From the NCBI RefSeq assembly GCF_002775205.1, contig NC_036447.1:8048501-8112500 (forward strand): DNA of 64,000 bases, read 5' to 3'. Under the pieces are notes generated by a model, which searched no databases, was not told the DNA's origin, and saw nothing but the letters and a program-made list of their open reading frames with translations. Origin of the DNA: Xiphophorus maculatus (taxonomy: Eukaryota; Chordata; Actinopteri; Cyprinodontiformes; Poeciliidae). The number at the start of each line of letters is the position of its first letter. Within the stretch, counting starts at the first letter, position 1. Position numbers and translations under genes: made by a program. Shown piece by piece: positions 13,901 through 45,094 of the stretch.

Positions 13901-16494
13901 CTTTGGAAAAGCTTGTCATAGTCAATCTGCCCATTTTCTGATTTGACAATAATTTCATACGTGTCTGTTTAACTTATTAGAAGGATCTTTTTTTTAAAAT
14001 CCGTTTTCTGTTTAAGACAACAAAGTGGTCTGCGTGTCTTTTCTAAATGAGAGAAACAATCCAGGGGACATTGTCAGGCCCAAAGACTTTTTTTTATATC
14101 CAAATGTTTTGAAATGATTTATCTGCTTTGTATTTATTCGTTTCACATTTTAAAGATTTCTAAGTTGTCTGGTTTATAAATATATTTAACTCTTCGTCAC
14201 TGTTTTTGCAGTTTTAGATCTTTTTTGTGTGATCTTGATGTTTCATCCTTTGGTCTTTTGTAATGTTTTGTTTGTGTTCAGTGTTCCACAAAGCGCGCTC
14301 GGCTGTTCCCTGTGTCGTCTTCTTTGACGAGCTGGACTCTCTGGCGCCCAACAGGGGGCGCAGTGGAGACTCTGGAGGAGTGATGGACAGGTGAGCGTTG
14401 ACTTCAGTCGGGAATCTTTCTGGTACCTTCTCTCTGTGTTCTGCTTCATGAACATAAATAAATCTGATCTTCTGTCCTCTGGTCAGAGTTGTGTCTCAAC
14501 TGCTGGCTGAACTGGACTCGCTGCAGTCGTCTGCTGGAGTTTTTGTGATCGGAGCCACAAACCGTCCGGATCTGCTGGACCAGTCGCTGCTCAGACCCGG
14601 AAGGTTAGAAATAATCAAATAAATGATGACAGTGTTCATAATGACAAAACATATTGAGATTAATTAATTATTGAAACAATCATCAACTAATTCAGCAATC
14701 GATTAGTCGCTAACTGGAACACACAGACTCAAAAAAATGCATTTTGCTTAAAAAAAACAATATTCAGAGCAGTAATTCAACCGAAACTGTACAATATATG
14801 TAGAGAGAGTTTACATTTGATATAAAAGCACTTGTGTGTAAAAATGTTTTACCCAAAACTCCTCAAGTGGTAGTTTTAGCATCACCCAGTTCAAATTTAC
14901 TAAAGCAATGTTGCTGTTGCATTTCAAAAATAAACTGAATTATTTGTTTATTTGCATCTTTTACCTTATTCTGAAATTGTACTAAAAAGGCTGGAGTGGT
15001 AAAATGAAAAATATGTAGAATTTGCCTTTTTTATGTGATTAATCAGATAAAAGACAAATTTCAGATAACCATTTAAGCCACTTAACAACTTGGATGCAAA
15101 ATGTGTATAGTTTTTATAATTATTTTTACCTAATTTCTGCTTTGAATATGTTGTTCTTTCAGCAAATTGACTTTTTGGAGTCTGTTTGCCTCAGTTAATT
15201 AATTGATTACTAAATTAGTTGACAATTGTTTCGATATTCGATTTATCATGATTAATTGTTTCAGCCCTGAAACATGTGGATGTTGCTAATGCTAATTCAG
15301 CAGACTTTGACATTGAGGTGATTTTATTTTTCATTAAACTTCCACATTTTGTTGATCATAACTGCTTTTTCGTAAAAGCAATAAAAGGGTAAAACATCCA
15401 AGAGGGTGAATACTTCTTTATGCAGAGATGAAGTATGAACTTCTCTTGGACTCTGTCTCTGCAGGTTTGATAAACTGGTCTATGTTGGGATCAATGAGGA
15501 CCGCGTCTCCCAGCTGCAGGTTCTCCAGGCCATCCTCAGAAAGTAAGAACAGTCCTCTGAAGGCAAGAGGAAAATAAAATGTCTGCATCTGCAACATCAA
15601 CTTATCTGTGCTGTATGACAACGTATTAGGGCCTTTGGACATAAAAAATAGAGAGTAAATTTCCACCAAATTTTTTTTCTGCGTTTCTGTGAACTCTGGA
15701 ATGATCTTTTTTTTTTTTTTTTTCTAAAACGTTTATGAGATCAATCTCAAAATTTCTGAGTTTTTTTTTCAATCAAATTTTCAACGTTTTAAACTCAGAA
15801 ATTTTCTTTTTCTGTGTTTTGGGGGAAATTTACTCCTTTTTATTTATTTTATATGAGGTTTATTGTCATTGTACAGTATTTTCTCTACAATGGCCCTAAT
15901 ACACCTTCGTATTGGTATTATTTTTGGTGCTTTAAGCTAAAATAATAATTAAAAAAACAGACTCCCAGTTTGAGTTGAAATGTCTTCACTGTGTGTTTAG
16001 GTTCCAGTTGGATCCGGCTGTGAATCTGCAGGATGTGGTGGATCGCTGCCCGACTCGCATGACCGGCGCCGATCTGTACGCTCTGTGCTCAGACGCCATG
16101 ACGGCGGCCATCAAGAGAAAAATCCAACAGATCAACGATGGTAAGAACAAAAAAATGGCTTTAAAAGGTTCTGTAAAGCCTTCATGGCATTTTTTTAAGG
16201 TAAGAGCTACACTAAGTTTACTTTGGAACTATTTATGTATTTTATTAGTTTTTTTCCTTTCTCATGTCCACATTGTCTTTGCCTTTGTCCTCTCTTTGTT
16301 GGTCAACATCAGCAGTTATTCCCTAATAATCTGTAATCTCGCCGTTCTGTCCTCCAGGTCTGGATTCAGAGGACTCTCCTGTCCTCCTCTCTGCAGAGGA
16401 TTTCTCTTCTGCTCTGAAAAACTTTAGACCTTCTGTTTCCGAAGCGGAGCTGCTGCGGTACCGAAGCATTCACCAGGAACTCTGCGGACAGTAG
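1945..16494 (+). CDS. pex6: Peroxisomal biogenesis factor 6 (AAA+ ATPase), 18 exons
   Basis: PEX6 and PEX1 form the AAA+ ring that pulls the receptor PEX5 out of the peroxisome membrane. Exons: 1945-2472, 3322-3939, 4870-5040, 5191-5294, 6588-6687, 7518-7651, 8043-8148, 9149-9345, 10326-10506, 10803-10879, 11958-12075, 12750-12955, 13052-13113, 14282-14390, 14487-14603, 15465-15542, 16001-16140, 16358-16494. Together they give about 1060 aa (human about 980). The D2 ATPase is canonical: Walker A GPPGTGKT at residues 824-831 and Walker B VVFFDE at 879-884, followed by the pore and arginine-finger region. D1 is degenerate: P-loop GPAGSGKMT at 564-572 and no acidic Walker B ([10 protein letters not shown]). 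Start chosen at the first ATG with PEX6-like sequence. The exon 3 donor is the least certain: the strongest site (5037) breaks the frame, and 5041 keeps it. The final exon is partly copied at 42656-42716. Confidence 0.95.
5450..5870. mobile_element. Short non-autonomous DNA element in pex6 intron 4, copy A
   Basis: AT-rich sequence homologous to 56008-56405. Shared blocks include AACTGTATGCCTGTGA, AGAAGTGTGATTT(A/G)TATCACTAA and ACAATAAACGATA-like ends. No coding capacity. The 56-kb copy has clear terminal inverted repeats; this one has weaker ends. Confidence 0.6.
7687..7746 (+). mobile_element. ISL2EU-like element terminus (solo end)
   Basis: TATTGACCCTTTGCACGTGA and the following bases match, in opposite orientation, the end of the element at 24776-24835. 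The match covers CCTTT-CACGTGACGTCAC-CTCTCC and continues into a CGCC-rich stretch. Only one end is visible here, in pex6 intron 6. Confidence 0.5.
8440..8690. repeat. Dispersed repeat, copy 1 (pex6 intron 7)
   Basis: Shares ordered blocks with 52985-53215, including CTGCAGGTGT, ATGCTTCA(C)AATAAAATTACT, AAGTAAAAGTAAA and a closing CCCAACTC. Shorter matches occur at 1-75 and 52733-52800. It resembles a common teleost non-autonomous element; class not determined. Confidence 0.55.
9096..9147. repeat. (TG)n microsatellite forming the pex6 exon 8 acceptor
   Basis: About 25 TG units run without a break to TAG at 9146-9148. That AG is the splice acceptor of pex6 exon 8 (first base 9149), so the tract stands where a polypyrimidine tract would normally be. 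Confidence 0.95.
9610..10049. mobile_element. Non-autonomous DNA element with 14-bp inverted ends
   Basis: Begins AGGGCTGGACAATA and ends TATTGTCCAGCCCT, a perfect 14-bp terminal inverted repeat about 440 bases apart inside pex6 intron 8. No open frame. The ends resemble hAT-type MITEs common in fish. Confidence 0.75.
12244..12261. repeat. (TA)n tract
   Basis: Short run of alternating AT in pex6 intron 11. Confidence 0.8.
12512..12623. mobile_element. 112-bp Tc1/mariner-type MITE (pogo/Tigger-like ends)
   Basis: CAGTGAACCCTCG at the left end is exactly inverted as CGAGGGTTCACTG at the right, and both ends are flanked by TA (12510-12511 and 12624-12625), the target duplication of this superfamily. 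The interior is GC-richer than its surroundings and non-coding. It sits in pex6 intron 11. Confidence 0.85.
13155..13511. mobile_element. Short non-autonomous DNA element, copy 2 (pex6 intron 13)
   Basis: Homologous along most of its length to 926-1335, ending ATCATGACAGGCC. The left end is truncated or diverged. Confidence 0.55.
14640..15272. mobile_element. Non-autonomous hAT-like element (pex6 intron 15)
   Basis: The right end reads AATTGTTTCAGCCCT and the left end carries ATTGAAACAATCATCAACTAA, whose inverted form recurs near the right end. This ATTAAT/GAAACAATT-rich type is frequent in fish genomes. Non-coding. Confidence 0.5.
15623..15902. mobile_element. 280-bp MITE with GTATTAGGGCC ends
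   Basis: GTATTAGGGCC at 15623-15633 is inverted exactly as GGCCCTAATAC at 15892-15902. The interior is rich in TCTGAG/CTCAGA blocks. Related sequence occurs at about 2730-3190 and 17870-18105 (with its duplicate near 44090-44325), so this is a local multi-copy family. Confidence 0.7.
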
Positions 16495-16629
16495 AAAACC
16501 TCTGTGAGGCGTTTCATCAGGCGTAGCTGCTAAATGTAACATTAAGACAACGTGCGAGTTCTGAGTTGACGCTTTTCACCGTTTTTATTTTTCTAACATG
16601 TAAATGACACGAAGAAAGAAGCGCATGCT

Positions 16630-16635
16630 AATAAA
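16630..16635 (+). terminator. Polyadenylation signal of pex6
   Basis: AATAAA about 135 bases after the pex6 stop codon. The same signal is present in the duplicated block near 42852. Confidence 0.7.
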
Positions 16636-44422: not shown

Positions 44423-44438
44423 GGCTCTTAAAAGAGCC
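44423..44438 (-). promoter_or_regulatory. Histone H1 mRNA 3' stem-loop
   Basis: GGCTCT-TTTA-AGAGCC on the minus strand, about 33 bases after the H1 stop, with a purine-rich AAGAGCTC about 15 bases further (U7 snRNA target-like). Together they predict a replication-dependent, non-polyadenylated mRNA. Confidence 0.9.
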
Positions 44439-44470
44439 TTTGTTTAGCTGATGTCTGACAGGGATGGAGT

Positions 44471-45094
44471 TCACTTCTTGGCTGCTGCCTTCTTCACTTT
44501 GGGCTTAGCGGTCTTCTTCGCTGGAACTTTCTTAGCTGCTGCCTTCATAGGGCTCTTAGTGGCCTTCTTGACCGCCTTCTTAGGGCTCTTCGCTGCCTTC
44601 TTGATGGCTGCTGGCTTCCTGGCCTTCTTAGGAGACTTCTTGGCAGCAGCAGCCGCCGCAGGCTTCTTGGCTGCTACTTTCTTGGCCTTCTTAGCCGGCG
44701 CCGCTGCGGGTTTCTTGGCCGGCGCCGCTGCAGGCTTCTTAGCTTTAGCAGCGGGTTTCTTCGCGGGCTTCTTCGCCTTGGTGTCGGCCTTGCTGCCCAT
44801 CTTGAAGGAGCCGGAGGCCCCGGTACCCTTGGTGTGGACCAGGGTTCCCTTGGTGAGCAGGCTCTTGATGGCGGTCCTGACTCTCGCTTTGTTTTTGTCC
44901 ACATCGTATCCTCCGGCGGCCAGAGCCTTCTTGAGGGCGGCCGCCGACACGCCGCCTCGCTCCTTGGAAGCGGCCACAGTTTTCACGATCAGCTCGCCGA
45001 CGCTGGGGCCGCTCTTCTTGGGCTTGGAGGCCTTCTTCTTGGCCGCTTTGGCCGGAGCGGCGACGGGCGGTGGAGCTGGAGCGACTTCTGCCAT
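44471..45094 (-). CDS. Linker histone H1
   Basis: 207 residues from ATG at 45092-45094; the frame is open for 21 more codons upstream, but [10 protein letters not shown] is the classic H1 N-terminus. Residues 1-32 form the Ala/Pro/Lys-rich head. About 33-107 are the winged-helix globular domain ([20 protein letters not shown], then [20 protein letters not shown] and [11 protein letters not shown]). The rest is the Lys/Ala/Pro tail with several SPKKA cyclin-dependent kinase-type sites. It binds linker DNA at the nucleosome dyad and compacts chromatin. Single exon with a histone stem-loop, so S-phase expression is expected. Its tail and 3' flank are duplicated at 16434-18562. Confidence 0.97.

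Follow-up and report, generated by a model that had tools for sequence, protein, structure and literature searches.

How did some 24 kb of DNA come to lie between two genes, pex6 and a linker histone H1 gene, that appear once to have been direct neighbours? The question is raised by a 64,000-nucleotide stretch of the platyfish Xiphophorus maculatus genome (contig NC_036447.1, here C5, positions 8048501–8112500; hereafter the window), in which a block with lipoxygenase, coiled-coil and ttbk1 sequences is bracketed by a 2.1-kb direct repeat, whose copies we call L (16434–18562) and R (42656–44789). The window was compared with itself and with the whole assembly (704.3 Mb in 101 contigs); as genome searches scored the best candidates, copy counts are lower bounds and absences hold for the candidates scored. 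We find that the block is a mosaic of a lipoxygenase segment, a long interspersed nuclear element (LINE), a unit of a U2/coiled-coil array and inverted ttbk1 exons, and that R belongs to a 31-kb inverted segmental duplication whose second copy, T, lies on the same contig.

The two repeat copies, both on the plus strand, align over 2135 columns at 98.5% identity (E = 0), and base-level alignment shows that their similarity stops abruptly on both sides. They are the sole long repeat in the window self-comparison (the next best is 264 bp), and the block is not repeated in tandem there; a simple head-to-tail duplication of the whole 26-kb unit is ruled out, as the original prediction had argued. 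That prediction had also described complementary gene fragments at the two copies, and this is what we find. L holds the end of the last pex6 exon, intergenic DNA and the 3′ part of H1. The 3′ half of pex6 (12696–16494, plus strand) runs from the D2 AAA exon (12696–12983) through the last exon to a stop at about 16494, and its 3′ end is intact at L. We take this gene to be pex6 from the name first given to it and from motifs of human PEX6; the segment matches Pfam AAA (E = 3.1e-9) and PDB entries including Peroxisomal ATPase PEX6 (E = 1.8e-23), with CDC48/VCP proteins scoring above PEX6. H1 at L (18250–18562, minus strand) is 5′-truncated to its Lys/Ala-rich C-terminal tail alone, retaining a histone stem-loop sequence at 18202. 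R runs from a pex6 stub of the last 19 codons (42657–42713) into H1, here a complete open reading frame (44471–45157, minus strand; Pfam Linker_histone PF00538, E = 3.8e-19). A genome search with the 2.1-kb unit, in which 40 of 106 candidates were scored, gave full-length matches at three places, namely L, R and a T version (C5:8398294–8400432, minus strand) arranged like R; pex6 and H1 stand tail to tail in all three, which bears out the proposed ancestral adjacency.

The companion claim, that the intervening block exists once, has to be given up. Window sequence from about 19392 to the end of the block and on to 50829, that is, from the lipoxygenase segment to a U2 small nuclear RNA (snRNA) gene, is found inverted at C5:8423103–8389766 (stretches aligned from window position 19380), about 290–300 kb away; this second copy rules out a single-copy block. 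Segmental duplications are stretches of 1 kb or more, with an identity of 90% or higher, whose match is not accounted for by a single mobile element, and here we have 31 kb at ∼99% and 2.1 kb at 98.5% identity. The window copy, W, and T are collinear apart from the inversion of the whole. They differ at 197 of 30641 aligned positions: 73/12334 in the lipoxygenase segment, 7/1460 in the LINE, 76/6962 in the array unit piece, 8/1722 in the ttbk1 piece, 9/2133 in R, 8/4642 (0.17%) in the H1–H2B stretch at 44790–49440, which is the least diverged segment, 9/1112 at 49458–50570 and 7/259 (2.7%) in the U2 stretch. The larger segments diverge by 0.17–1.1%, and the low divergence noted in the original prediction is upheld. 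The low divergence of 44790–49440 suggests gene conversion across ∼300 kb. W alone has indels of ∼575 bp near 20087 and 160 bp near 23757, and T alone has one of 154 bp near W position 21818; other indels are shorter, apart from a 2.4–2.46-kb insert in T (C5:8391186–8393632, at W position 49446), which, with a repeat of ∼13 bp on either flank, looks like a recent mobile insertion. No truncated lipoxygenase or H1 gene marks one copy as derivative, since W and T have the same 12 lipoxygenase pieces and identical H1 proteins.

The pieces of the mosaic can be followed from left to right. Exactly at the junction of L and the block lies an interspersed element of ∼825 bp (18567 to ∼19391) with three 109-bp tandem units, so that the left border has more parts than the original prediction described. 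Position 18563–19379 gives 28 matches: four other copies, on C17 and C18, cover at least 750 of the 817 query bases at 95–96%, further pieces lie on C1, C11 and C17, and an aligned C17 copy reveals both ends. AAG is present on either side of the element, which could reflect target duplication or coincidence; no obvious terminal inverted repeats were seen by eye. T lacks the element, the homology between T and W starting directly past it. The lipoxygenase segment (19392–32480, plus strand) follows, and queries with 19380–24400 (40 of 1494 candidates scored) and 24400–32400 (40 of 1024) gave long matches nowhere but in W and T, the rest being short repeats. Its gene (26026–31722, plus strand; Pfam PLAT, 1e-6, and Lipoxygenase, 1.6e-13) has its pieces in ALOX5-like order from the start Met to the C-terminus; the 12 pieces in each copy were found by tblastn with a human ALOX5 query, three N-terminal ones being weak. 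Genome-wide, nine lipoxygenase matches were obtained, namely W, T and seven others (C5:16.18 Mb, two on C11, one on C14, two on C15 and one on C22).

At the junction of the lipoxygenase segment and the array unit, in W and T alike, sits a fragment of a young non-LTR retrotransposon, the LINE (32481–33940, plus strand), with a reverse-transcriptase reading frame at 32580–33674 (RVT_1, E = 9.2e-25) and 38 further long genomic copies at 96–97% among the 40 candidates scored. The array unit piece (∼33941–40933) begins no further right than 34000, probably where the LINE ends. It is 96–99% identical to units at C5:7.72 Mb, C5:7.89–7.98 Mb and C5:8378786–8384658, the last adjoining T; the unit repeats every 20.7–20.8 kb at C5:7.89–7.98 Mb and occurs also at C5:7.28 Mb. 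Its left part (34000–37260) has ∼95% copies on C7, C10 and C15 and matches on the small contigs C37, C56, C91 and C94, while more diverged relatives of its coiled-coil part lie on many contigs. The coiled-coil reading frame itself (37403–39583, minus strand) is a single exon of 726 amino acids with 246-bp internal repeats and without a Pfam hit, and belongs to a multicopy family. Next come two ttbk1 exons (41456–41521 and 42446–42541) with surrounding introns, copied in inverted orientation (40934–42655, plus strand). Their source, C5:8016633–8018353 on the minus strand, is retained ∼30 kb to the left of the window, and the exons correspond to human TTBK1 residues 180–232 (PDB TTBK1, E = 2e-16). 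The 1.72-kb piece differs from its source at seven positions plus one at the edge; of 14 variable columns, six are private to the source (the first being the edge itself), six to T and two to W. Beyond R, the shared stretch includes a histone H2B gene (48816–49196, minus strand; Pfam Histone, 6.7e-25) with a 3′ histone stem-loop at 48747–48792 (Rfam RF00032), and a search with 44790–50829, scoring 40 of 3481 candidates, gave no long match outside W and T.

The shared stretch closes in the U2 snRNA gene (50637–50827, plus strand; Rfam RF00004, 169.5 bits). Strong homology between W and T ends at 50829, the 3′ end of this gene, with weaker similarity to 50856. Upstream, T is window-like; past U2 it continues as array-like sequence and W as different DNA. 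Aligned with the array unit, T positions 8389537–8390421 give 923 columns at 82.3%, which by arithmetic is 78.6% for the part shared with W and ∼93% for the part beyond. Because T follows the array past U2 and W does not, T is most simply read as a recombinant at U2, with a homology-guided junction at this switch. Within U2 the bases shared by W, T and the array unit are interleaved; the exchange point can therefore be placed only approximately, and conversion within the gene seems likely. The array at C5:7895903–7982673, with a 20.8-kb unit, comprises five copies of the intronless coiled-coil reading frame and four U2 genes (C5:7903713, 7924497, 7945267 and 7966005). Elsewhere, five U2 genes at 2295-bp spacing (C8:23038152–23047522) score highest among the 28 listed U2 matches and probably form the main U2 array.

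Mosaic segmental duplications of the duplicon type are ascribed to template switching, either as microhomology-mediated break-induced replication (MMBIR) or as fork stalling and template switching (FoSTeS). Discontiguous templates whose source is kept, as expected of such switching, are seen here in the ttbk1 piece with its source and in the array unit with its relatives. Two junctions have 2-bp microhomology: TG is common to both parents where ttbk1 meets the pex6 stub, and CC is common to H1 and T where H1 meets the lipoxygenase segment once the ∼825-bp element is set aside. The other junctions lie at U2 or at mobile elements.

We consider that there is about an even chance that the locus arose by a recent mosaic segmental duplication, through ectopic copying within one chromosome that was guided by homology and microhomology, with T formed first. 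The patchwork and its junctions are observed; the steps and their order are what we infer from them. A break at T, beside a unit of the U2/coiled-coil array, would have been mended with the homologous U2 gene at the window locus as template. The fork would have proceeded through H2B and H1 into the last exon of pex6, from where it would have switched by microhomology into ttbk1 and then to the coiled-coil and lipoxygenase side of T. Later, a break in the H1 gene of the window would have been repaired by copying T back (pex6 stub, ttbk1, coiled-coil gene and lipoxygenase), the far end being joined to the broken H1 tail at what is now the site of the ∼825-bp element. L would then be the original member of the direct repeat and R the copied-back version. 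An order with T first accounts for the presence of just two long copies of the lipoxygenase segment and for the start of the W block at the limit of T homology; for the same reasons, it needs no lost source for that segment.

The substitutions in the 2.1-kb unit place R and T closest (9/2133 differences, against 27/2128 for L–R and 26/2128 for L–T). This closeness relative to L comes mostly from the H1 tail (L–R 13/310, L–T 12/310, R–T 1/316); in the rest the counts are 14/1818, 14/1818 and 8/1817, respectively, and since the intervals overlap, the events may have followed each other closely. The H1 tail of L at 18398–18562 is much more divergent from R and T than is the sequence around it (L–R 13/310 versus 14/1818), as if this stub had slipped or been converted.

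Several observations count against the order that we favour, which is weakly supported. Private substitutions in the 1818 positions before the H1 tail number 10 in L, 4 in R and 4 in T, which is not significantly unequal (chi-square ∼4 with 2 degrees of freedom, calculated by hand). Microhomologies of 2 bp are common by chance. If W had kept its own H1–U2 stretch, the age of that stretch should match that of L–T, yet 44790–49440 is the least diverged of all (8/4642); the favoured order therefore needs gene conversion, or copying of the segment as a whole, in addition, and without conversion the low value fits neither order. None of the seven other lipoxygenase matches lies near T, so that paralogues beside T are ruled out as a sign that the segment is native there. 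In a search that scored 40 of 132 candidates, no repeated element spans the boundary between the lipoxygenase segment of T and the DNA past its end (X, from 8423104); one short, old repeat ends ∼20 bp inside it. X itself (8423104–8425000) has no similarity to the 284 kb around the window and is near-unique in the search, its single match being a 63-bp one that lies 1.3 kb farther along; it therefore tells us little as to which of the two loci is native. On the favourable side, window positions 20792–21139 have a 351-bp match (91%) at C5:8428155, 5 kb past the end of T, which is a weak hint that such sequence is native to the neighbourhood of T, or simply a repeat.

The reverse order, which comes near to the original prediction, seems to us possible, if less probable. 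Lipoxygenase, coiled-coil and ttbk1 sequences would have entered between pex6 and H1, the 2.1-kb unit being duplicated by a staggered break or a template switch; 19392–50829 would later have been copied to T, with copying initiated through homology at the U2 array and ending at the mobile element beside the lipoxygenase segment. The tree is the same, with L outside R and T; it is T that looks recombinant at U2, the U2 flank of W appearing continuous, and the element at 18567–19391 could have halted copying or provided the break. This order requires a lost lipoxygenase source, as long matches are confined to W and T, and the end of T must coincide by chance with an older junction between L and the lipoxygenase segment. 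One option in the original prediction, that a duplication was followed by an insertion, stands; its other option, a single insertion into widely staggered breaks, fits the target-duplication geometry of L and R but leaves T, the ttbk1 piece and the U2 boundary unexplained, and extra events would be needed for T and the ttbk1 piece.

It is unlikely, in our view, that the flanks were exchanged by recombination between the 31-kb copies, flipping the ∼290 kb between them, so that present flanks are uninformative about which copy is original. Inverted repeats ∼99% identical and 290 kb apart would permit this, and the tract at 44790–49440, at 0.17%, suggests exchange or conversion; direct evidence of inversion is lacking, however, and the step is an extra one that still requires the duplication. 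Near-identical repeats are also where assemblies fail, but we think a haplotype or collapsed-repeat mis-join very improbable: the three copies carry dispersed, differing substitutions, the flanking sequences of L, R and T differ, and T alone has the 2.4-kb insert with its short flanking direct repeat. Least credible of all is that mobile ends carried the block as a transposon. Mobile elements do lie at two junctions, those of the lipoxygenase segment with L and with the array unit, but paired element ends or a short target duplication were not seen on both borders of the block, the element being at the left border only. Because such ends are missing and the right-hand junctions (42655/42656 and 50829) bear microhomology or U2 instead, the block is not a composite transposon.

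The platyfish locus resembles known template-switching mosaics (MMBIR/FoSTeS, also discussed in PMC7450558) in bringing together sequence from several loci of one chromosomal region, with inversion, low divergence and, at two junctions, short microhomology that may be due to chance. Seen in one fish assembly, it differs in having one junction at a homologous U2 gene and a mobile element at another. That paper deals with segmental duplication through circular intermediates, including cited cattle translocations, with 1–2-bp microhomologies and breakpoints within interspersed repeats. Distant duplication and 1–2-bp microhomology are common to both cases, and a circle carrying an R-like unit and the block could insert by homology, leaving direct repeats; the flip from A–B/C–D to B–A/D–C described there is not seen, the order in W and T being the same bar the whole inversion. 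U2 genes in a tandem array recall RNU2 near BRCA1 (PMC3795722); the platyfish unit is 20.8 kb and includes the coiled-coil gene. More speculatively, and we think it rather doubtful, the dispersed U2/coiled-coil unit may act like a primate core duplicon, its U2 landing sites seeding break-induced copying and the resulting mosaic duplications carrying histone and lipoxygenase genes around one megabase. Full-text literature searches, judged by titles and the beginnings of abstracts, returned no published account of the locus, which is not to claim its absence from print.

Two further features of the window may be mentioned. An open reading frame at 53447–53893 resembles part of a sphingosine kinase; it has no Pfam hit and is presumably sphk1, a name that rests partly on motifs. 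A dispersed repeat of ∼300 bp, 75–82% alike between copies, occurs at 1038–1313 and 13220–13510 and at L011:4957–5254.

We conclude that the locus is an ordinary kind of genome rearrangement that is unusually readable. Most pieces, several sources and the junctions are still legible at 0.2–1% divergence, so that the duplication steps can be ordered by way of related species. Its structure predicts 26-kb deletions or duplications between L and R, altering lipoxygenase copy number, and inversions of the 290 kb that separate the two inverted 31-kb copies. As H1, H2B, U2 and lipoxygenase are duplicated pairs here, read mapping and copy-number calls for these genes are affected.

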